IMG/VR virus record: IMGVR_UViG_3300025928_000002 | Coordinates: 1 to 58,128 of that record | Length of the DNA: 58,128 bases | Direction: 5' to 3' (one strand) | Origin: a virus | Shown: positions 5,685 through 31,743 of the stretch, in pieces | Numbering within the stretch: position 1 is the first letter of the stretch | How the letters are laid out: each line of letters starts with the position of its first letter | Program-made: the position numbers and the translations under genes | The notes under the pieces: model-generated | What the model was told of the DNA's origin: nothing | Database searches by the model: none | Seen by the model: only the letters and a program-made list of their open reading frames with translations

Positions 5685-6056
5685 ATGGCTCAACAGCAGT
5701 TCGAGGAGCCGCCGGATCTGTTTGACTCGAGCGGCGAGAAGATCGTCGTCTTCCGGAAGCCGGATGGGACGCTCTTTAGCAACCATCCCGAGTACCAGTT
5801 CGCGAGGGCGATGTACGATCAGGCCCAAGCGAAGGCCGCCGAGGCCGAGCATCCGGCCGTCGACACCGAGGACATGGTCGACGACGAGCCGCAGGAGCAG
5901 GACAACAACGATGGCGTCACCTCGTACGAGGAGATGACCAGCGCGGATCTGCTCAAGCTCACCAAGGAGCGCAACCTCACTCTGCCGGACAAGAAGCGAT
6001 CCACCGCGATCGCCGCGCTCGAGGAATACGACGCGGAGCACGAGAAGTCGGAGTAG
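5685..6056 (+). CDS. SAP/HeH-like small head protein
   Basis: 123 residues from the ATG at 5685, preceded by AGAGGAGG; an ATG three bases earlier is too close to the ribosome-binding site. The middle is acidic. The C-terminus (TSADLLKLTKERNLTLPDKK...AIAALEEYD) matches the pattern of SAP/HeH helix-extended-helix domains that bind DNA and are often found in head-completion genes next to the capsid gene. A role in head completion is inferred from position. Confidence 0.5.
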   Translation: MAQQQFEEPPDLFDSSGEKIVVFRKPDGTLFSNHPEYQFARAMYDQAQAKAAEAEHPAVDTEDMVDDEPQEQDNNDGVTSYEEMTSADLLKLTKERNLTLPDKKRSTAIAALEEYDAEHEKSE

Positions 6057-18718: not shown

Positions 18719-19291
18719 CTAGAGTCGATTGAGAGTATGATTTGGATCGGTAGGATGGGGCGAATCGAGGTGACCTAAGGCGATACGCCGCAGTCGCGTG
18801 GCGACTTCCCTAGCAAATCTTCGGTCATTCAACTCGTGGTTCAGGCCGCTGGGGTGGGGAAATTTGACCACCGCAAACTCACCGCCATCCACTAGCTGAA
18901 GGTCGAACCAGGGTGACTTGTGGGGCAGGTCGAAACCTCTCCACACCTTAGTGCCCAGCGCGACTACCACCACTGGGTTACCGCTGTCGATCCAGTCGTT
19001 GTACCCCTGGGGGGTGAGCTTGAGTCTTAAGTGAACGCGCATCCGACCCTTGAGATTCGCCACCCCCTCACGGGCCAGCGGTCGAGTCAGTTGACTAGAT
19101 CTGCACTTAGGGTCTGGGTTAAGCGGAAGTGGTTTAAGCAACAGGTTCTCTAGGTAGAAGAGTCGCTCCAGCTCGTCGCGAGTGTTGACTCCTAGCCACC
19201 TCATGACTGTGTTACCCGAAGGTCCGCTGAAGGCTCTACCATCGCCCTTAAGAGAGGGAGCTTGCCCCAGCAGAACTGGCTTTACTTGCAT
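18719..19291 (-). CDS. Uracil-DNA glycosylase-fold protein
   Basis: 190 residues on the reverse strand. N-terminal VLLGQAPSLKGDGRAFSGPSG and the late motif PHPSGLNHELND are the two signature regions of the UDG superfamily (phosphate/uracil pocket and the HPS loop); VVVVALGTKVW is the central strand. Such enzymes remove uracil or other altered bases from DNA. The first motif lacks the classic catalytic Asp/His of family 1, so substrate is open. It is separate from the UDG-like domain fused to the polymerase. Confidence 0.65.
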   Translation of the reverse strand: MQVKPVLLGQAPSLKGDGRAFSGPSGNTVMRWLGVNTRDELERLFYLENLLLKPLPLNPDPKCRSSQLTRPLAREGVANLKGRMRVHLRLKLTPQGYNDWIDSGNPVVVVALGTKVWRGFDLPHKSPWFDLQLVDGGEFAVVKFPHPSGLNHELNDRRFAREVATRLRRIALGHLDSPHPTDPNHTLNRL

Positions 19292-19367: not shown

Positions 19368-19949
19368 TCAGTCCTCGTCGTCGAACTCGAGCTCTTCGTC
19401 GTCCTCCTCGGCGGGCTCCGGCGCCTTCTTCGCGGCCGCCTTCTTGGCGGTCGTCTTGGCCGGCGGGGTGGCCTTCGCCGCCCGCTTGGTGGCGTTGTCC
19501 GCCTTGAGCTTCTCGAGCGCCTCCTTCTTCGCGGTCTCGGCCTCGCCGCTCAGGTAGGCCTTGACGATCGCCTTGACCTCCGGGTCCTGCAGACCCAGCG
19601 GCCAGTCGTACCGGCTGCGGTTGCCGGCGACGATCTCGCGGTTGACTCGCGGGCCGCCGGGCTTGTCGGTCTCGCGGGCCATGCGGCGGATCAGGGTGCG
19701 GAGCTCCCGCGTGGTCACCTGCTTGCCGCACTTCTGGGTCAGGTACTCGGCCAGGTGGGCGACCCCGAAGACCACGTCGGCCCCGGCCCGGGACTTCTTG
19801 CTGGTCGCGGTCGAGTCGGCCTCAGTCTCCTGAACCTCCTCGAACTCCTCGTTCTCCAGCTCCTCGAGCTCCTCCTCGAGCTCCTCGGGCTCGGGCTGCG
19901 GAGCCGGCTTCGGCTTAGCCGCGGCGGCCTTTCGAGTGCGCGTCGCCAT
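19368..19949 (-). CDS. DNA-binding-type protein with acidic and Lys/Ala-rich tails
   Basis: 193 residues, AAGGAGG before the ATG. Residues about 15-50 are Glu-rich, residues 60-140 form a compact helical core (VAHLAEYLTQKCGKQVTTRELRTLI...RSRYDWPLG), and residues 150-185 are Lys/Ala/Pro-rich like a histone tail, ending in an acidic cluster. The core loosely matches the LRKFLR-type domains at 33467 and 44891. It is probably a nucleoid-associated or regulatory DNA-binding protein. A good promoter (TTGACA, 17 bases, TAGATT) drives it. Confidence 0.55.
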   Translation of the reverse strand: MATRTRKAAAAKPKPAPQPEPEELEEELEELENEEFEEVQETEADSTATSKKSRAGADVVFGVAHLAEYLTQKCGKQVTTRELRTLIRRMARETDKPGGPRVNREIVAGNRSRYDWPLGLQDPEVKAIVKAYLSGEAETAKKEALEKLKADNATKRAAKATPPAKTTAKKAAAKKAPEPAEEDDEELEFDDED

Positions 19950-22005: not shown

Positions 22006-22308
22006 ATGATGACGCGACTTAGCGCGACTGCCGCAGATATCGGAGAAGTCAAGGAGTTCATCCGACTCGCAGAGACTCTGGGTTACGACGACGACACTCT
22101 GGTTGGCAACCACCACACCGGGCTTGATCTCTTCATCGAGCTCCCGGTGCAGTCATCTAGCTACGGCTGCGGTGATGATAGCTGTAAGTTCAGGACTGTC
22201 AAGGAGGCGATGGGACTCACAGCTGACCGGCAGTTGATTATGCCCCACCACAGTAACGGCCGGGGATACACTTGCGCGGGATCTGGAAAGGAGGGTCGAC
22301 CGATATAA
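22006..22308 (+). CDS. Hypothetical protein, possible metal-binding
   Basis: 100 residues after GAAGGAGG. Starts with a helix (DIGEVKEFIRLAETLGY) and has scattered His/Cys (GNHHTG, YGCGDDSC, YTCAGSG). Its TAA overlaps the ATG of the kinase gene, so the two are translationally coupled. A promoter-like TTGATG, 17 bases, TAGACT lies just upstream (about 21955-21983). No function recognised. Confidence 0.55.
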   Translation: MMTRLSATAADIGEVKEFIRLAETLGYDDDTLVGNHHTGLDLFIELPVQSSSYGCGDDSCKFRTVKEAMGLTADRQLIMPHHSNGRGYTCAGSGKEGRPI

Positions 22309-22865
22309 TGATCATCATAGAAGGCCCGGATGGCGCTGGCAAGACTACGCTTATCAACAACCTGTCGTCGTTCTTCGGGCTGCCTGTGGCGCCGAGGGTA
22401 GTACGTCAAGACACGACAGCGATGGTCAATTTGCGAGAGTGGGTTGACACTAATCTGGCGCAAGGCTTCCAGCCGACCATATTCGACCGCCATCGTCTCA
22501 TCTCAGAGCCCATCTACGGCACGATCCTGCCGAACAAGATCGTCGACAACGACTTCTGGGATCGGCGATGGCTCAAGGAGGCGATGGCCAAGTTCCACGA
22601 CATCCGCCCTCTGGTCGTGTACTGCCTCCCGCCACTCGGCACTGTGGTCAGAAACATAGTCGACGACCCAGATAACCAAGAGGTCCGCCCTCACATCGCC
22701 CAGATATATCGGGCATATGTAGCCCAGGCTGCCCGCTCGTCGAACTGCTATGTGTGGGACTACACCAAGATCGGCGATGTATCTGGTCAACATGAGATAC
22801 TCGCAAGCCTCCTGTACAAATCCGTCGAGCGAGTGAAAGAAGGCCGTCGTGACTGGTGGAACTGA
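22308..22865 (+). CDS. dNMP/thymidylate kinase-like P-loop kinase
   Basis: 185 residues from the ATG at 22308, overlapping the previous stop. N-terminal IIIEGPDGAGKTTLINNL is a Walker A loop of the nucleotide-kinase type; FDRHRLISEPIYG is the DR(Y/H) motif found in thymidylate and dNMP kinases. It would phosphorylate deoxynucleoside monophosphates to diphosphates. Neighbours (dUTPase/dCTPase-like, two TS-fold proteins, dCMP deaminase) suggest its substrate may be the modified monophosphate made by the phage, as gp1 does in T4. Confidence 0.75.
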   Translation: MIIIEGPDGAGKTTLINNLSSFFGLPVAPRVVRQDTTAMVNLREWVDTNLAQGFQPTIFDRHRLISEPIYGTILPNKIVDNDFWDRRWLKEAMAKFHDIRPLVVYCLPPLGTVVRNIVDDPDNQEVRPHIAQIYRAYVAQAARSSNCYVWDYTKIGDVSGQHEILASLLYKSVERVKEGRRDWWN

Positions 22866-23328
22866 AGAGCTCCCCTACCGGGGTGCGAAGGTGATCGTGG
22901 CAGAGGCCAGTCCGGGCTACCTCTTCTTCGACAAACTCGCCACCATATTCGCGGGCCAGCAGCAGCTCATGGATCGTTACTACGACATCGAGAAGCAGGG
23001 TGGCTTCTCTTTCCCAGTGCCGCAGGATGAGCTGGGTGAACTAGACTTCTGTCTCGTGCAGGCAAGATTGCATGAGATGTTCGGCTTCACGGTACGAGAG
23101 CTCAGCGAAGCCATGCAGGAGCTGCGATGGAAGCCGTGGAAGCAGAAGTGGACGCCGACCGACCGCGAGAAGTTCGCTGAGGAGATGGCCGACGCGCTGC
23201 ACTTCTTCGTGGAGATGTGCATCACCGCCGGCATGACCGCGGAGGATCTGTTCAACGCCTACTTCCGAGCATGGCAGAAGAATAGAGGCAGACAGGACAA
23301 TGGATATTCAGACACCTCCGTCTCTTAA
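22849..23328 (+). CDS. dUTPase/dCTPase-like (all-alpha NTP pyrophosphatase)
   Basis: 159 residues with a GTG start overlapping the kinase gene by 17 bases. ELSEAMQELRW, EEMADALHFFVEMC and WQKNRGRQDNGY are the metal-binding EExxD-type helices and the KNxxRQ..GY tail of the dimeric dUTPase branch of the MazG superfamily, which also includes T4 dCTPase-dUTPase. It hydrolyses dUTP and perhaps dCTP to the monophosphate, feeding the adjacent TS-fold enzymes and lowering unmodified pools. Confidence 0.75.
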   Translation: MTGGTEELPYRGAKVIVAEASPGYLFFDKLATIFAGQQQLMDRYYDIEKQGGFSFPVPQDELGELDFCLVQARLHEMFGFTVRELSEAMQELRWKPWKQKWTPTDREKFAEEMADALHFFVEMCITAGMTAEDLFNAYFRAWQKNRGRQDNGYSDTSVS

Positions 23329-23461
23329 GAGATGGGCTCAAGTTCTAACTTTCCTGATCATCACGTTGCTGGCAGTCGTGGCTGTGGCTGCCGGCGTATT
23401 GGTCTTACTGTGCATCATCAACTTGATCGGATACGTCGTTGTTGACATCTCACACCTATAG
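23300..23461 (+). CDS. Small membrane protein
   Basis: 53 residues from ATG 23300 to TAG 23459-23461, overlapping both neighbours (29 bases upstream, 23 downstream). A short polar N-terminus (MDIQTPPSLKRWAQ) is followed by one long hydrophobic segment of about 34 residues (VLTFLIITLLAVVAVAAGV and onward). AGGCAGACAGG lies upstream. Function unknown; its tight overlaps suggest translational coupling within the nucleotide operon. Confidence 0.5.
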   Translation: MDIQTPPSLKRWAQVLTFLIITLLAVVAVAAGVLVLLCIINLIGYVVVDISHL

Positions 23462-24470
23462 CGCCCCGACCCTGAGCGAGCTCCACACCCGCATGTGTCT
23501 GAGTCTCGCTTACGCCAGCGAGGATCAACTCGACACTGCGTCGGTCATCGACGTCTCTCAGCACAACGTGCTGGCCACCGCGGACACGCTCGACTGGGAG
23601 TTTGACCTCAAGACGCTCTGGTTGACTAAGTCCCGATGGACCATGATGGTCAACCAATACCTCAACGCCGAGGACGTCAAGGCTTGGCTCGCCCAGTGCA
23701 TGAAAGTCGGCTCTAAGGGTCGGGGGCAAGCGACTCTCCGCACCAAGACCGTGAAGTCCGAAGGCGGTCGGGCGAATGGCATGACCAACAAAGAGCGGCG
23801 GCGGTGGGGATCGTGCATGCTCGCCATCGTCTACAAGGCCTTGCCGACTCCGACCATCACTCTCCACAGCCGCACGTCCTACCTGGGGTACCTGTCAGCC
23901 CTGGACGTCAGTGTGGCTCAGAAGCTCGGCGCTTACGTCGCGGATCTGATTGGCCTGACCGTCAGCGATATCGGTTTCGTCTGGCAGATCGACTCGATAC
24001 AGTACCACTCATTCAAGTCACTGGCCTTCTTGCTCTCAAATGAGGACCCGTCCATTCGTAAGTTTGGACGCCGAGTCCTACTGCTGCCGGAGTCGAAGCT
24101 CAACGAGGACGAGCGGATCTTCGCTAACGCCCCAGCTATTCGGGGCAGTAGGCTCTGGCTAGCCAAGGTACGCCGTGAAGACCAAGGGGGTGTTACTTAC
24201 GGACAGATGAGCTACAACACCTATAGGCGCATCCGCCGGCGGTGGCATACAGAGGTCCGAGGGTATGACTTCGGCGAGCAGTTCGAGGGCCCCAAGATCC
24301 TCAAGGATGGCACTGAGGGCGCTGAGTTCTTCAAGCGCTACCTGCCTCTGCCCAACGTCTACGTCTCGACGCTCGACCTGACGACTCTCAAGTTGCCCAG
24401 AGACTACCTCGCTGATATCATGGAAGGTGTAGAGGTAGAGGTCGACTCAGACGATGAGGAGGAAGAGTGA
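23439..24470 (+). CDS. Thymidylate-synthase-fold protein, first of two (Asp at the Asn site)
   Basis: 343 residues with a TTG start (23439 or 23442). WGSCMLAIVYKAL provides a Cys 19 residues before the Arg of TLHSRTSYLG, close to the 20 in TS (E. coli C146 to R166). Eleven residues after that Arg is Asp (LSALD), where TS has the Asn that selects dUMP and dCMP hydroxymethylases have Asp. GFVWQIDSIQY matches the TS FVW...H.Y strand, though the His is Gln. The N-terminal part is divergent. Likely a deoxynucleotide (hydroxy)methyltransferase or an inactive partner of the next gene, whose start overlaps its stop. Confidence 0.6.
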   Translation: MLTSHTYSAPTLSELHTRMCLSLAYASEDQLDTASVIDVSQHNVLATADTLDWEFDLKTLWLTKSRWTMMVNQYLNAEDVKAWLAQCMKVGSKGRGQATLRTKTVKSEGGRANGMTNKERRRWGSCMLAIVYKALPTPTITLHSRTSYLGYLSALDVSVAQKLGAYVADLIGLTVSDIGFVWQIDSIQYHSFKSLAFLLSNEDPSIRKFGRRVLLLPESKLNEDERIFANAPAIRGSRLWLAKVRREDQGGVTYGQMSYNTYRRIRRRWHTEVRGYDFGEQFEGPKILKDGTEGAEFFKRYLPLPNVYVSTLDLTTLKLPRDYLADIMEGVEVEVDSDDEEEE

Positions 24471-25381
24471 TCACGGTAGGTTCACGATCGTTCGACATGA
24501 TCATGTCCGAGCTCGCTGAGCATCTGAACTACCTGGCTCAACCTGTGGAGAGTCAGACGTGGCAGTCCCAGAGCACCGATGGCCGCACAGGCATGAGACT
24601 CACCTGGGAGCTCGAGGACGTCGCGGTCAACATGCATGTGCCGGGTACTGTCGCGATGATGGCTGAGCTGACATCACCTAATCTGCCATGGGCTGACATC
24701 CACTTCCAGGAGCGCGTCGGTGGCAATCCAGTGAACCCTCCGCCATCTCATGCGATCTGGCCCCATCGGCAGCAAGGCAACCAGGAACATCTTGGAGCTG
24801 ACCTGAAGTTCTCCCACACCTATCCGGAGCGATACTGGCCCACTCATGCCGGCCATAGGCCCGAGCAGTGCGGTGTGGGACCGAACGGCACGTCGACCTG
24901 CGAGTTCGGCCCTACCTTCGGCGTTCGATATGAGTATGGTGACCTGTTCGATGTCGTGAATCTCCTCGAGCGGGATCCAACTACTCGACAAGCGTATCTG
25001 CCGGTGTGGTTCCCAGAGGACACTGGCGCCGTGTTCAATCAGCGAGTTCCCTGCACTCTGGGCTACTGGTTCCGCATTCGCAAAGGGCACCTCCACTGTA
25101 CCTATCACATGAGGTCCTGTGACTACCTTCGCCACATGCGTGACGACGTGTATCTTGCGATGCGTCTCATGGACTGGATCTGCAACCGGCTCAACGACCT
25201 GTCTTATCTGGCAACTGAGGGGGTCGATCCGAGTCGCCATCTCAGTCTGTTGATTCCCGGCCGATTAACCATGAACATCGGGTCGCTTCACATCTTCGAC
25301 GGTGACCGGGCCAACATGAAGGATCTATCACGACGCCTGAGTCGTAAGGCGTCCGAGCGAGTCATGGGAGCGATGGGATGA
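24467..25381 (+). CDS. dCMP hydroxymethylase/thymidylate synthase family, second of two
   Basis: 304 residues, GTG start overlapping the previous stop. The TS core is clear: VVNLLERDPTTRQAYLPVWF, then VPCTLGYWFRIRKGHLHC with the nucleophile Cys, YHMRSCD exactly 20 residues later, and LTMNIGSLHIF for the D.H.Y strand. Eleven residues after the Arg is Asp (RDD), in place of the Asn of TS. That change is the known switch from dUMP to dCMP, as in T4 gp42. Expected reaction: addition of a methylene-folate carbon to C5 of dCMP. Product could be 5-hydroxymethyl- or 5-methyl-dCMP. The dCMP deaminase start overlaps its stop. Confidence 0.75.
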   Translation: MITVGSRSFDMIMSELAEHLNYLAQPVESQTWQSQSTDGRTGMRLTWELEDVAVNMHVPGTVAMMAELTSPNLPWADIHFQERVGGNPVNPPPSHAIWPHRQQGNQEHLGADLKFSHTYPERYWPTHAGHRPEQCGVGPNGTSTCEFGPTFGVRYEYGDLFDVVNLLERDPTTRQAYLPVWFPEDTGAVFNQRVPCTLGYWFRIRKGHLHCTYHMRSCDYLRHMRDDVYLAMRLMDWICNRLNDLSYLATEGVDPSRHLSLLIPGRLTMNIGSLHIFDGDRANMKDLSRRLSRKASERVMGAMG

Positions 25382-25878
25382 CCTCCGATGAGCGACCCTC
25401 ACGCGACGATATACTGATGCTCTCTGCGAATCTCTGGGCACGCCGTAGCAGCTGCTCACGATCGCACATCGGCGTCGTCATCGCGTCGACCGACGGCAGG
25501 ATTCTGATTACCGGTTACAACGGCGCTCCGGCCGGCATGCAGCACTGTAACCACAACTGCACGTGCAGGTATGTTAGTCGTGAAGCGTTTGAATCGGCTT
25601 CGCTAGGCCATTTTCTCGAATGCCCCGCGGATAAGCCCTGTCTAATCTCTGTACATGCAGAGGCCAACGCTATCGCCCGTTGTGCGATGGAGGGCATACG
25701 TATCGGTGGGTCTCAGATCTTCACCACCTTCTCGCCCTGTGTCCCTTGCGCCCAGCTCATCATCAGCTCTGGCATCTCTCGAGTGGTGTGGGGTCAAGAG
25801 TATAGGGATCATCGCGGCCTGGATCTACTTGACCAAGCGGGGCTAGAGGTGGTAAAATATGGGCATGAGACGGACTAA
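25378..25878 (+). CDS. Deoxycytidylate deaminase
   Basis: 166 residues, ATGA overlap with the previous gene. Zinc and catalytic motifs are complete: HAEANAIARCAMEG and SPCVPCAQLII; an extra CNHNCTC segment resembles the second zinc site of phage dCMP deaminases. It converts dCMP to dUMP, the precursor of dTTP. Next to two enzymes predicted to use dCMP, it may set the split between thymidine and modified cytidine synthesis. A leaderless promoter for the next gene lies inside its 3' end. Confidence 0.9.
   Translation: MTSDERPSRDDILMLSANLWARRSSCSRSHIGVVIASTDGRILITGYNGAPAGMQHCNHNCTCRYVSREAFESASLGHFLECPADKPCLISVHAEANAIARCAMEGIRIGGSQIFTTFSPCVPCAQLIISSGISRVVWGQEYRDHRGLDLLDQAGLEVVKYGHETD
25829..25864 (+). 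promoter_or_regulatory. Leaderless promoter for gene at 25865
   Basis: TTGACC (25829-25834), 18 bases, TAAAAT (25853-25858), six bases, ATG at 25865. It lies inside the deaminase coding sequence and fits the spacing rule seen at nine other genes. Confidence 0.6.
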
Positions 25879-26116
25879 GCAGCAACCGCCTGTATTTCCC
25901 CCTGAGAAGGCTAAAGATGGGGGCTTTGGGATCGAGCAGTACGAGGGTGACAACGAGTATGTGAAGGGGCTGTGGCCTGGCTCTAAGATTCTTGCCACCG
26001 AGCATGTGCATATCGCGCCCTGTGGTGGCTACTTCAACCACAAGCATGATCGCGGCGCTGAGCCCCACACCCACACCCACGACGAGTGCGAGTGGTGCGA
26101 GAGGAATCGAGCTTGA
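25865..26116 (+). CDS. Hypothetical His-rich protein
   Basis: 83 residues from the ATG at 25865 (an ATG at 25859 overlaps the promoter spacing). Contains AEPHTHTHDECEWCERN at the C-terminus, with several His and two Cys that could hold a metal. It overlaps the deaminase end by 14 bases and the polymerase start by four bases. Function not recognised. Confidence 0.55.
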   Translation: MRRTKQQPPVFPPEKAKDGGFGIEQYEGDNEYVKGLWPGSKILATEHVHIAPCGGYFNHKHDRGAEPHTHTHDECEWCERNRA

Positions 26117-28665
26117 GCGGCAGAGATCTCGACTTCTATGAGGTCGGCACGTGCGATAAGTGCAAGCTCCATCGTGGCGCAGACACAGTGTGTGAGCGTG
26201 GATTTGGGTCCACGCCTGCGGCCGTGATGATCGTCGGCAAGATGCCGAACTCTGATCGCTACCAGACTATGCTGAGAGAGGATCTCCGGCGAGCAGGTCT
26301 GTCTGGCAGCATCAAGATCTTCTGGTCGTCAGCGCTTAAGTGCCGCAACTTCGAGGCGAACGCAAGTAACACCGACATCAAGACCTGCCGGCAGTATCTC
26401 GAGCGTGAGATTCAAGCGGTACAGCCCAAGTTCATCTTGACCATGGGTAACGAGGCGCTGCTCTCTGTGACCGGCCATAGCGGCATCATGAAATGGCGGG
26501 GTAGGCCGCTGCAGATGCATGGCGCCGTCGTGATGCCTACGATCTCGCCATCGGCCGTGCTCGCTAGACCCCAGAATCGCCCTGGTTACGAGGCAGATCT
26601 TAAGCTCTTCTGCTCGCTGGTCCACGGAGTAGATCCCGAGGGCGTTGTTGTTCCGATCGATTTCACCACCATCGACTCGCCGGCTAAGCTCAAGGAGCTG
26701 GCGGAGGATCTCGACGACGCTGATCTGCTGGTGTTCGACATCGAGACCAACATCGTGCCGCTGCAGGAGTATGACCCTCGCGCTCGCATCATCTCACTGA
26801 GTGGTACGTACATCGTCGATGGTCAGGTTCGGGGATTCGCGTTGCCGCTATACCATCCTGAGTCGCCCTTTGAGACTCGATGGCGAGCTGCGATTAGATT
26901 CATTGTTCCACACATGGCGCGCGTCAAGAAACGCATCGCCCACAACGGCAAGTTCGACTGCAGATGGCTTAGCCGATTCTCAGGTGTGGAGATATGGAAC
27001 ACTTTCGACACCATGCTGGGCACCCATCTTCTCAATGAGAACGTGCTCAAGGGTCTCAAGCCTCAGGCTCAGATGAGACTTGGCGTCTCGCCTTGGGGTG
27101 TGGATACTGCTAATCTGCTCTCTATGCCTCTGCGAGAAGTGCTTGAGTACAACTTCCTCGACACCTACTACGATTACCTGATCTACCTGCAGATTGTCGA
27201 TGAGCTGAAGAAGCAGCCTAGACTTGCTCGACTCTACTCTTTCCTGTACAAGCCTGCTAACCGCGACCTGATCAAGACTGAAGGTCGCGGCATGTGGCTC
27301 GATGTCGATCGCCTGAAGGATCGGTTGCCTGAGGCTCGACACAGGCTTGACACGATCGAGGCTGCGCTTTCTGAATGGCTCCCCGAGCGAGACTCCATCG
27401 CCTGGCCCACTGACTCGAAGGGTCGACCGCTCGAGCCGAACTTCAATCCTTCTAACTTCTGCAGATGGTTCCTATTCACCTGGCTTGAGCTACCTGTGCT
27501 CGCCAGGGGCAAAGAGAAAGATGACGGCTCGCCTGGCGCACCATCGCTAGCGGCTGACGTGCTCTCGCTGATGATGGAGAATCCCGATCATCATCCGGTC
27601 ATCGATCTGATGGCCAAGCGTGCAGGTCTTCAGAAGGATCTCAGCTTCCTTGAGTCGTACGCCCAGCTGTACGATGAGAATCAGCGCATGCGTACCTCCT
27701 TCAAGCTTGCCGGCACAGTCACCGGCAGGCTCAGCTCCGGCAAGGAGGACTCATCCAAGTTTGTAGGATCAGCCTCTAAGATCAAGGGCTTCAACGCTCA
27801 GCAGGTACCGCGTGACCCATTCATCCGTGGTGTCATCGGCTCCACACCGGGGTGGACGTGGGTCGAGGCTGACTACTCTCAGATCGAGCTGAGGATCGCT
27901 GCATTCTGCGCCAACGAACGTACCATGATACGGATGTATAATGAAGGCGCTGACATCCACATGGAGACCACGATTGCGGTCACTGGGCTGCCGCGACACA
28001 AGGTCACCAAGGAGATACGCAAGAAGGTTGGCAAACCGGTCAACTTCGGCTTTCTGTATGGCATGGGTTGGATGAAGTTTATCTACACTGCCTTCAACAA
28101 CTACGGCGTCAGATTCACTGAGCAGGAGGCTCGCGCTTACCGCGAAGCATACTTCAGGCTGTTCCCCGATCTGCTGACTTGGCATGACCGCCAGCGTCGT
28201 CTGGTCAGAGCTAATGGTCGAGTACAGTCGGCAATTGGTCGAGTGCGCCACCTGCCCGACATCGAGTCGCCTGAACAAGGAGTACGTGCAGAGGCCGAGC
28301 GACAGGCGATCAACTCACCGGTACAGGGCCTCGCCTCCGACATGGCTGTACTCAGCATGATCCACATCAACGAGCAGCTACGTGAACAAGGGCTAGATGA
28401 CGCAGCTCACTGTCTCGGTCTTGTCCACGATGCGACCAACTGGGAGATTCGCGATGACAAGGTGGCTCAAGTGCTACCCATCATCAAGAACGGCATGGAA
28501 GATATGAGCTATCTGCGACGCAAGTTTGCTTTGAACATGACGCTGCCCATCATCGCAGATCTGAAGGTGGGGCGCCACTGGGGCGACTCGCTCGAGTTGA
28601 CGCCCGAGCAAGTATACGACTACCCTGGGCTCGAGAAGATCGAAGAATACAACATCGCCTACTGA
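26113..28665 (+). CDS. Family A DNA polymerase with N-terminal UDG-like domain
   Basis: 850 residues from the TTG at 26113 (AGAGG upstream; overlaps the previous TGA). Residues about 10-180 form a UDG family 4/5-like domain (CDKCKLH, ALKCRN, TISPSAVLARP), a fusion known from SPO1-type polymerases. Then a 3'-5' exonuclease: FDIETN (about 207), HNGKFDCRWL, YNFLDTYYDYL. The polymerase part has motif A ADYSQIELRI (about 585), the O helix KKVGKPVNFGFLYG and motif C LVHDAT (about 771). Motif C has Ala where Pol I has Glu (HDE). It is the replicative polymerase. Confidence 0.9.
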   Translation: MSGRDLDFYEVGTCDKCKLHRGADTVCERGFGSTPAAVMIVGKMPNSDRYQTMLREDLRRAGLSGSIKIFWSSALKCRNFEANASNTDIKTCRQYLEREIQAVQPKFILTMGNEALLSVTGHSGIMKWRGRPLQMHGAVVMPTISPSAVLARPQNRPGYEADLKLFCSLVHGVDPEGVVVPIDFTTIDSPAKLKELAEDLDDADLLVFDIETNIVPLQEYDPRARIISLSGTYIVDGQVRGFALPLYHPESPFETRWRAAIRFIVPHMARVKKRIAHNGKFDCRWLSRFSGVEIWNTFDTMLGTHLLNENVLKGLKPQAQMRLGVSPWGVDTANLLSMPLREVLEYNFLDTYYDYLIYLQIVDELKKQPRLARLYSFLYKPANRDLIKTEGRGMWLDVDRLKDRLPEARHRLDTIEAALSEWLPERDSIAWPTDSKGRPLEPNFNPSNFCRWFLFTWLELPVLARGKEKDDGSPGAPSLAADVLSLMMENPDHHPVIDLMAKRAGLQKDLSFLESYAQLYDENQRMRTSFKLAGTVTGRLSSGKEDSSKFVGSASKIKGFNAQQVPRDPFIRGVIGSTPGWTWVEADYSQIELRIAAFCANERTMIRMYNEGADIHMETTIAVTGLPRHKVTKEIRKKVGKPVNFGFLYGMGWMKFIYTAFNNYGVRFTEQEARAYREAYFRLFPDLLTWHDRQRRLVRANGRVQSAIGRVRHLPDIESPEQGVRAEAERQAINSPVQGLASDMAVLSMIHINEQLREQGLDDAAHCLGLVHDATNWEIRDDKVAQVLPIIKNGMEDMSYLRRKFALNMTLPIIADLKVGRHWGDSLELTPEQVYDYPGLEKIEEYNIAY

Positions 28666-30951: not shown

Positions 30952-31743
30952 ATGCCCAAGCCAGCGGCCGCTGCTGAGGCGCTCGACTTCACCAATGTGA
31001 AGGACGGGGGAGGCCAGTTCAGCAAGACTCGGTTCCCGGAGGCTGACTACAAGGCCCGGGTCACCCAGGTGCAGTCGGTCACACCCAAGAACGACCCGAA
31101 CGCCAAGATGTGGCTCTTCACCATCGAGGTGACCTACAAGGGCCGCAAGGGCACCTACCCGTACTACGTCAAGCTCGTCGAGAACCAGCTGTGGAAGCTG
31201 CGCAACCTCTTCGCGGCGGCCGGCATGACAATCCCCCAGAAGCGAGTCAAGGTCGACCCCAACAAGGTCGTCGGCAAGTTCATCGGCGCTACGCTGCAGG
31301 ACAGCGAGTACAACGGCCGCATCCAGTCGGAGGTGCAGTACGTCCTGCCTCTCGATAAGATCGAGGCCTACGACGGCGATCTCGAGGACCAGACCGACGA
31401 CGAGGTCGAGGATGAGGAGGAGCTGGAGGAGGAGCTGGAGGAGGAGGTCGAGGACGAGGAGGAAGAAGAGGAGGAGAGCGAGGAGGACCGGCAGAAGCGG
31501 CTTCGCCGGGAGCGCGCTGCGGCTCGCAAGGCCAAGGCCGAGGCGGAGGCAGCCGCGGCGGCGGAGGAGCTCGACGAGGACGAGGACGAAGAGGAGGAGG
31601 AGGATACTCCGGCGCCCCGGCGGACCAAGAAGGCCGCTGGCCCCGCCCGCGGCAAGACCGCGAAGAAGACCACCTCCGCTAAGCGGCCGGCGCCCGCGGT
31701 GGACGACGACGAGCTGGAGGATCTCGACCTCGACGATCTGTAA
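30952..31743 (+). CDS. Single-stranded DNA-binding-like protein with long acidic tail
   Basis: 263 residues, AAGGAGGATAGC upstream. Residues 1-140 form a compact beta-rich domain (DYKARVTQVQSVTP, MWLFTIEVTYKGRKGTYPYYVKLVE, VVGKFIGATLQDSEYNGR) like DUF669-type phage SSBs. Residues about 145-235 are nearly all Glu/Asp, interrupted by Arg/Lys/Ala and Pro/Lys segments, and the end is DDELEDLDLDDL. Acidic C-termini of SSBs recruit replication partners; this one is unusually long and mixed. The gene follows the Sak4-like ATPase. Confidence 0.7.
   Translation: MPKPAAAAEALDFTNVKDGGGQFSKTRFPEADYKARVTQVQSVTPKNDPNAKMWLFTIEVTYKGRKGTYPYYVKLVENQLWKLRNLFAAAGMTIPQKRVKVDPNKVVGKFIGATLQDSEYNGRIQSEVQYVLPLDKIEAYDGDLEDQTDDEVEDEEELEEELEEEVEDEEEEEEESEEDRQKRLRRERAAARKAKAEAEAAAAAEELDEDEDEEEEEDTPAPRRTKKAAGPARGKTAKKTTSAKRPAPAVDDDELEDLDLDDL

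Follow-up and report, generated by a model that had tools for sequence, protein, structure and literature searches.

The stretch of DNA analyzed here (the window) is a viral record of 58,128 bases with a G+C content of 59% over its whole length. Two tandem open reading frames lie on its plus strand exactly where the sequence-only reading had placed them: ORF1 (23439-24470), encoding 343 amino acids from a TTG codon (TTG at 23439 or TTG at 23442, which are equally possible starts), and ORF2 (24467-25381), encoding 304 amino acids from a GTG codon. The genes share the bases GTGA, in which the stop of ORF1 overlaps the start of ORF2, and an AGGAGG sits before ORF2. ORF1 is a divergent protein of the thymidylate synthase (TS) fold belonging to the PHROG 13667 family, and ORF2 is a TS-superfamily protein that is probably a dCMP 5-hydroxymethylase. 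Upstream, on the same strand, are a thymidylate-kinase-like P-loop kinase (22272-22865; PHROG 761), which would be expected to phosphorylate a modified dNMP, and a dUTPase_2/MazG-type pyrophosphohydrolase recognized by profile matches, either a dUTPase or a dCTPase (22849-23328). Downstream are a dCMP deaminase, likewise recognized by profile matches (25378-25878), and a family A DNA polymerase (PolA, 26086-28665), which would be expected to incorporate the modified dCTP. The kinase, the pyrophosphohydrolase and the deaminase are the neighbors that had been proposed from the letters alone, and PolA joins them.

Several further features of the region were noted. The N-terminal domain of PolA belongs to the uracil-DNA-glycosylase (UDG) superfamily (PF03167, 4e-12), and upstream, on the other strand, another gene encodes a further UDG-superfamily protein (18719-19291, minus). 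Between the pyrophosphohydrolase gene and ORF1 there is an apparent short hydrophobic reading frame (23329-23440), and there seems to be a similar frame at this place in the window's nearest relative (L002, around 5890-6020). Long acidic Asp/Glu tails end several replication-module proteins, including ORF1 itself (24420-24467) and those encoded at 19368-19949 (minus) and 30952-31743. Neither a glycosyltransferase or other hypermodification gene nor a carbamoyltransferase was recognized among the window proteins scanned or in the annotations of Muddy, PMBT14 and the right part of Shrew; for the window, this agrees with the sequence-only reading, which had also recognized no glycosyltransferase. 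No flavin reductase was seen in the cassette.

Database searches with ORF1 returned only PHROG 13667 (6e-95), a family formerly without a function to which the TS fold is assigned here, and no convincing Pfam or NCBIfam match. The TS profile PF00303 matched none of 86 ORF1 relatives, TIGR03283 matched one of the 86 weakly, a search with the ORF1 sequence itself had no match in the PDB, and the ORF1 family profile gave weak TS matches there (E 0.8). The case for an active site had been made from a Cys, an Arg-Ser/Thr motif and an Asp in each protein, which in ORF1 are Cys126, Arg145-Thr at +19 and Asp156 at Arg+11. Since the pattern C-x18/19-R[ST]-x9-D is present in 0.3% of shuffled ORF1 sequences, its occurrence in a single sequence is merely suggestive, and it is the invariance of these residues across the family that settles the reality of the motif. 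Among 107 non-redundant ORF1 relatives, the only invariant positions of the 343 are Tyr74, Cys126, Arg145 and Asp156; the latter three are kept in 106 of 106 relatives (one fragment is gapped there), with exactly 11 residues from Arg145 to Asp156 in every case, while Gly124 is nearly invariant. By simple arithmetic, the chance of picking three of only four invariant positions out of 343 is about 6e-7. Cys126 (23814-23816) is the equivalent of the nucleophile Cys146 of TS, Arg145 (23871-23873) of Arg166, and Asp156 (23904-23906) of Asn177 in TS and Asp179 in the T4 dCMP hydroxymethylase (dCH), and Tyr74 (23658-23660) is the probable equivalent of TS Tyr94 and T4 dCH Tyr96.

The remainder of the TS active site is not retained in this family. 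At position 169, where TS has its folate-type Asp, ORF1 relatives carry Glu (53), Tyr (48) or Ser (4); the position of the ribose His207 is occupied by Gln, Thr or Tyr (Gln188 in ORF1 itself); and no invariant Arg is found ahead of the strand leading into the Cys loop, the place of the Arg126 motif. ORF1 accordingly does not have the combination of Asp169, His207 and Arg126 motif of a dCMP hydroxymethylase, and both its greater divergence and its Gln in place of the motif His, which the sequence-only reading had pointed out, are borne out. An acidic C-terminal tail is present in the actinophage group of ORF1.

An AlphaFold model of ORF1, built from an alignment of 86 sequences, has a mean pLDDT of 95.6 and a pTM of 0.92. 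All 50 PDB matches listed for this model belong to the TS superfamily (best E 2e-7, probability 0.99-1.00), led by the phage HY126 dCMP hydroxylase and followed by MilA and the T4 dCMP hydroxymethylase and then by uracil-type TS, while a viral structure library yielded phage TS, gp42 proteins and uncharacterized relatives. The query-normalized TM-scores of the 50 listed PDB matches are low (0.26-0.39), indicating that ORF1 has a far-diverged TS fold and is not a standard TS. In the models of both ORF1 and ORF2, the Cys immediately precedes a strand, the Arg lies close to the end of the strand after it, and the helix that comes next has the Asp as its fourth residue. Furthermore, the C, R and D/N residues share their register in three profile alignments, of ORF1 against the ORF2 family, against T4 gp42/RB69 ORF048c and against canonical TS, each of which is weak alone (P 8e-4 to 8e-3). 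The model and the three alignments agree in setting the Cys, Arg and Asp of ORF1 in register with TS, and the proposal that both proteins carry Asp at the Asn177 site holds. As modeled, ORF1 is a very divergent TS fold, a deeply diverged branch of a known superfamily.

ORF2 is more readily placed, as it matches PF00303 at 26.5 bits (cut-off 24.3) and PHROG 160 at 1.9e-29. With query TM-scores of 0.46-0.61, MilA, the HY126 enzyme and many TS are matches of its AlphaFold model (pLDDT 89.5), a Foldseek search with the model gave the TS family only within the best 50, and the best PDB match of the ORF2 family profile is the CMP hydroxymethylase MilA. Structure prediction of both proteins, which had been suggested as a check, thus led to the TS family throughout the best 50 PDB matches of each, including dCMP- and CMP-modifying enzymes. 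The spacing in ORF2 is Cys196, Arg216-Ser at +20 and Asp227 at Arg+11. Cys196-Thr197 (25052-25057) comprises the nucleophile and a Thr/Ser at position 147, which is His in E. coli TS; Arg216-Ser-Cys-Asp219 (25112-25123) provides Arg166, the deoxyribose-type Ser167 and the folate-type Asp169; Asp227 (25145-25147) occupies the Asn177 site, as in dCMP hydroxymethylases; His275-x-Phe277 (25289-25297) is the His207/Tyr209 motif; and Arg174-Gln175 (24986-24991) is the Arg126/127 motif, which binds the phosphate of the substrate in the partner subunit. In 138 non-redundant ORF2 relatives, Cys196, Arg216, Asp227, Arg174, Gln175 and His275 are invariant (138/138), confirming that ORF2 has all the core motifs ascribed to it, and Asp219 is found in 136. 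At the Ser167 position the family has Ser in 128 of the 138 and Ala in 10.

These residues can be read against enzymes of known chemistry. The change from Asn to Asp at position 177 shifts TS to cytosine, and phage contigs selected for modified cytosine are enriched in TS of the Asp type (PMC8670742). In T4 dCH, Asp179 recognizes and protonates cytosine, Tyr96 bonds to its 4-amino group, and Arg123 and Arg124 from the opposite protomer hold the phosphate (PMC6400193). The ribose preference of MilA arises from Ala176 and Lys133', whereas Ser and Arg give a preference for deoxyribose (PMC5175136). ORF2 resembles MilA, the CMP 5-hydroxymethylase of mildiomycin, in its Asp (Asp186 in MilA), its Cys-Thr and its Asp169-type residue, but differs from it in having the deoxyribose-type Ser and Arg in place of the ribose-type Ala176 and Lys133, which points to dCMP as the substrate. 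T4 gp42 (dCH) has the same full residue set on the TS fold, with Cys-Thr, Arg-Ser-x-Asp and Asp at Arg+11, and is accompanied, as here, by dCTPase/dUTPase, dCMP deaminase and dNMP kinase functions. However, gp42 is a single gene with no ORF1 partner, its sequence is only weakly similar to that of ORF2, and T4 has glucosyltransferases where none were found here. A cytosine nucleotide as the substrate of the pair is well supported by these known families, and ORF2, with its full set of catalytic, phosphate and folate residues, is best read as a dCMP 5-hydroxymethylase.

The sequence-only reading had regarded a side-by-side pair of such genes as unusual, which does not hold, since about 103 phage records (Gordonia, Mycobacterium phage Muddy, Streptomyces, Serratia, Pseudomonas and Brevundimonas) and many viral contigs carry the pair as a conserved unit. 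ORF1 relatives occur in 85 actinophage records and in a further 18 from Serratia, Pseudomonas, Stutzerimonas, Yersinia, Brevundimonas, Desulfofustis and uncultured phages, the Gram-negative relatives having been gathered through ORF2; a search of viral contigs with the ORF1 of Serbin found no relative. HMM iterations from three separate seeds, carrying no positional information, converged on one set of 128-130 proteins, of which 120 are encoded just upstream of ORF2, indicating that the actinobacterial and Gram-negative ORF1 groups are one family. ORF1 is labeled 'hypothetical' in nearly all of the approximately 103 records and ORF1-like genes are called 'pyrimidine hmase synthase' in two, while the ORF2 relatives are annotated as thymidylate synthase. 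In nine loci that we inspected, ORF1 lies directly upstream of the TS-labeled gene or one small gene away, and in most of them a pyrophosphohydrolase gene comes just before ORF1.

The linkage is one-sided. ORF2 follows ORF1 in 68 of the 69 loci that were fetched by ORF1 alone, the exception ending at the end of ORF1, so that none of the 68 testable loci has ORF1 without ORF2. By comparison, no ORF1 was detected in 56 of 174 loci with ORF2, many of these in contigs of more than 100 kb and some incomplete. The presence of ORF1 on the ORF2 tree requires 4 changes, against a mean of 23 when shuffled, and the distance matrices of the two proteins are correlated (r 0.81, 0/500 permutations), as co-inherited genes would give. 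In many loci the two genes overlap or abut, and a search for ORF1-ORF2 fusions found none. The kinase, dCMP deaminase and PolA accompany the pair in 107, 114 and 112 of 118 loci, compared with 3, 12 and 11 of the 56 ORF2-only loci. At a 70% threshold, no ORF2 residue separates the ORF1-linked from the ORF1-less proteins. The two proteins, both of the TS superfamily and both with the base-selecting Asp, are thus a linked, conserved unit of a nucleotide-modification-type cassette.

Variants of the arrangement were also seen. In three loci (L011, 8822-9370; L096, 6819-7364; L167, 6821-7501), ORF2 is closely followed by a third TS-like gene, one of the ORF1 family; in Pseudomonas phage PMBT14 the gene is masked by a dCMP deaminase annotation that is too long. 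In another locus (L090, 3059-4947), two tandem ORF1-family genes precede ORF2. ORF2-type Asp enzymes with no detected ORF1 are present in four contigs of 270-373 kb (L055, L058, L060 and L049), and ORF1 relatives occur in contigs that had been assigned to Acidobacteria and Polynucleobacter MAGs (L245 and L246), which are possibly host-binned phage contigs.

Taken from their sequences and gene content, phages that bear the cassette probably build their DNA with chemically modified cytosine. Our leading interpretation, to which we give a probability of about 0.45, is that the cassette replaces some or all of the phage cytosine with a C5-modified cytosine formed as the monophosphate and that ORF1 works in a mixed dimer with ORF2. 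A TS subunit relies on its partner for the Arg that completes its active site; ORF1 has no fixed Arg of this kind and that of ORF2 is invariant, which makes a mixed dimer the first choice. The co-inheritance of the two genes (r 0.81) is no more than compatible with such a complex. The dUTPase/dCTPase-like enzyme would supply dCMP, on which ORF2 would act as a folate-dependent 5-hydroxymethylase, with Cys196 attacking C6 and Asp227 holding and protonating the cytosine. ORF1 would bring its own nucleophile and base-selecting Asp to the mixed dimer, in which Arg174 of ORF2 would complete the ORF1 site. The kinase would then carry the modified nucleotide on towards the triphosphate, which PolA of the phage would incorporate, while the dCMP deaminase would divert leftover dCMP to dUMP. 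Hydroxymethylation by ORF2, the role of ORF1, the complex and incorporation into virion DNA are the parts of this scheme that we infer.

The mixed dimer is weakened by the ORF2-only loci, since ORF2 found alone and carrying no distinguishing residue evidently does not need ORF1. The dependence of ORF1 on ORF2, and not the reverse, instead favors two enzymes acting in sequence, in which ORF2 makes 5-hydroxymethyl-dCMP and ORF1 acts on this product or later on the modified base. In such a second step the ORF1 Cys would add to C6, the hydroxyl would leave, and another nucleophile would add to the exocyclic methylene, giving a new hypermodified cytosine. A step of this kind would not require folate, which fits the Tyr or Glu at the folate Asp position of a protein that keeps its Y, C, R and D residues. 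The third ORF1-like gene of some phages is also compatible with it, as is the finding of no other recurrent hypermodification gene in the window, Muddy, PMBT14 or the right part of Shrew. On the other hand, we found no precedent for a TS-fold enzyme performing such a step, and we consider sequential action a possible but less likely account. The bolder form of this proposal, in which ORF1 is a new folate-free class of the TS fold that converts the 5-hydroxymethyl-dCMP made by ORF2, or modified DNA cytosine, into a new hypermodified cytosine in about 100 phage records including Muddy, appears unlikely at present. Overall, ORF1 is probably either a mixed-dimer partner or a second-step enzyme, most likely the former, with the latter close behind and favored by the occurrence of ORF2 alone.

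It is rather improbable that one or both proteins are RB69/HY126-type dCMP 5-hydroxylases, which are flavin-dependent and produce 5-hydroxy-dCMP, or Xp12-type methylases. RB69-type phages do make 5-hydroxy-dCMP with a synthase of the TS superfamily (PMC13390438), the HY126 hydroxylase AfhB (PDB 9iqu, 9iqc) is the closest solved fold to ORF1 among the 50 listed, and the same motif region is found in RB69 ORF048c, these enzymes sharing with ORF1 the Asp at Arg+11 and a short Tyr-to-RR spacing. The Xp12-type dCMP methyltransferase, likened here by its literature description alone, is also a TS-superfamily enzyme acting on dCMP. However, the hydroxylases keep Asn169, His207 and an RR motif, whereas ORF1 has Tyr/Glu, Gln/Thr and no fixed RR, and so matches neither residue type at position 169. 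ORF2 likewise does not have the Asn, its Asp169 (136/138) being that of T4 dCH and MilA, and the cassette has no recognizable flavin reductase. This Asp argues, if weakly, for the use of folate by ORF2 and for the hydroxymethyl/methyl class, Asn169 as the marker of the hydroxylase class being itself deduced from the sequences of 9iqu and RB69 ORF048c. The residues do not decide among a hydroxymethyl, a methyl and a hydroxy product.

The loss of folate, ribose and phosphate residues from ORF1, its obligate link to ORF2 and the acidic C-terminal tail of the actinophage group would suit a catalytically silent protein with a regulatory role, one that controls ORF2 or the polymerase and has dCMP, modified dCMP or dCTP as its ligand. 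This is nevertheless very unlikely, because the nucleophile Cys is kept in 106 of 106 relatives and never changes, which would be unexpected for a silent subunit. Least likely is a nucleotide-pool module for dTMP supply involving no DNA modification: the dUTPase, kinase and deaminase do serve dTMP synthesis too and the ORF2 relatives are annotated as thymidylate synthase, but Asp stands at the base-selecting site throughout both families, and Microbacterium phage Triscuit (L012, 5992-9069) carries ORF1, an Asp-type ORF2 and a separate, canonical Asn-type TS in one cassette, so that dTMP synthesis there does not depend on the pair.

We found no published description of the pair or of the ORF1 assignment, although subscription papers and preprints were thinly covered and an earlier description is possible. 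What is new here is the conserved partnership of ORF2 with a deeply diverged branch of the TS superfamily, through which a family labeled 'hypothetical' in nearly all of its approximately 103 records gains a fold, an active site and a pathway. If the proposed role is true, ORF1, which keeps the nucleophile and the Asp, has lost the folate and phosphate residues and always stands beside a complete relative, would extend the range of this superfamily. Modified cytosine is predicted in phages of Mycobacterium, Gordonia, Streptomyces, Serratia, Pseudomonas and Brevundimonas, several of which are in culture, and such modified DNA would bear on how sensitive phages like Muddy are to restriction and CRISPR.
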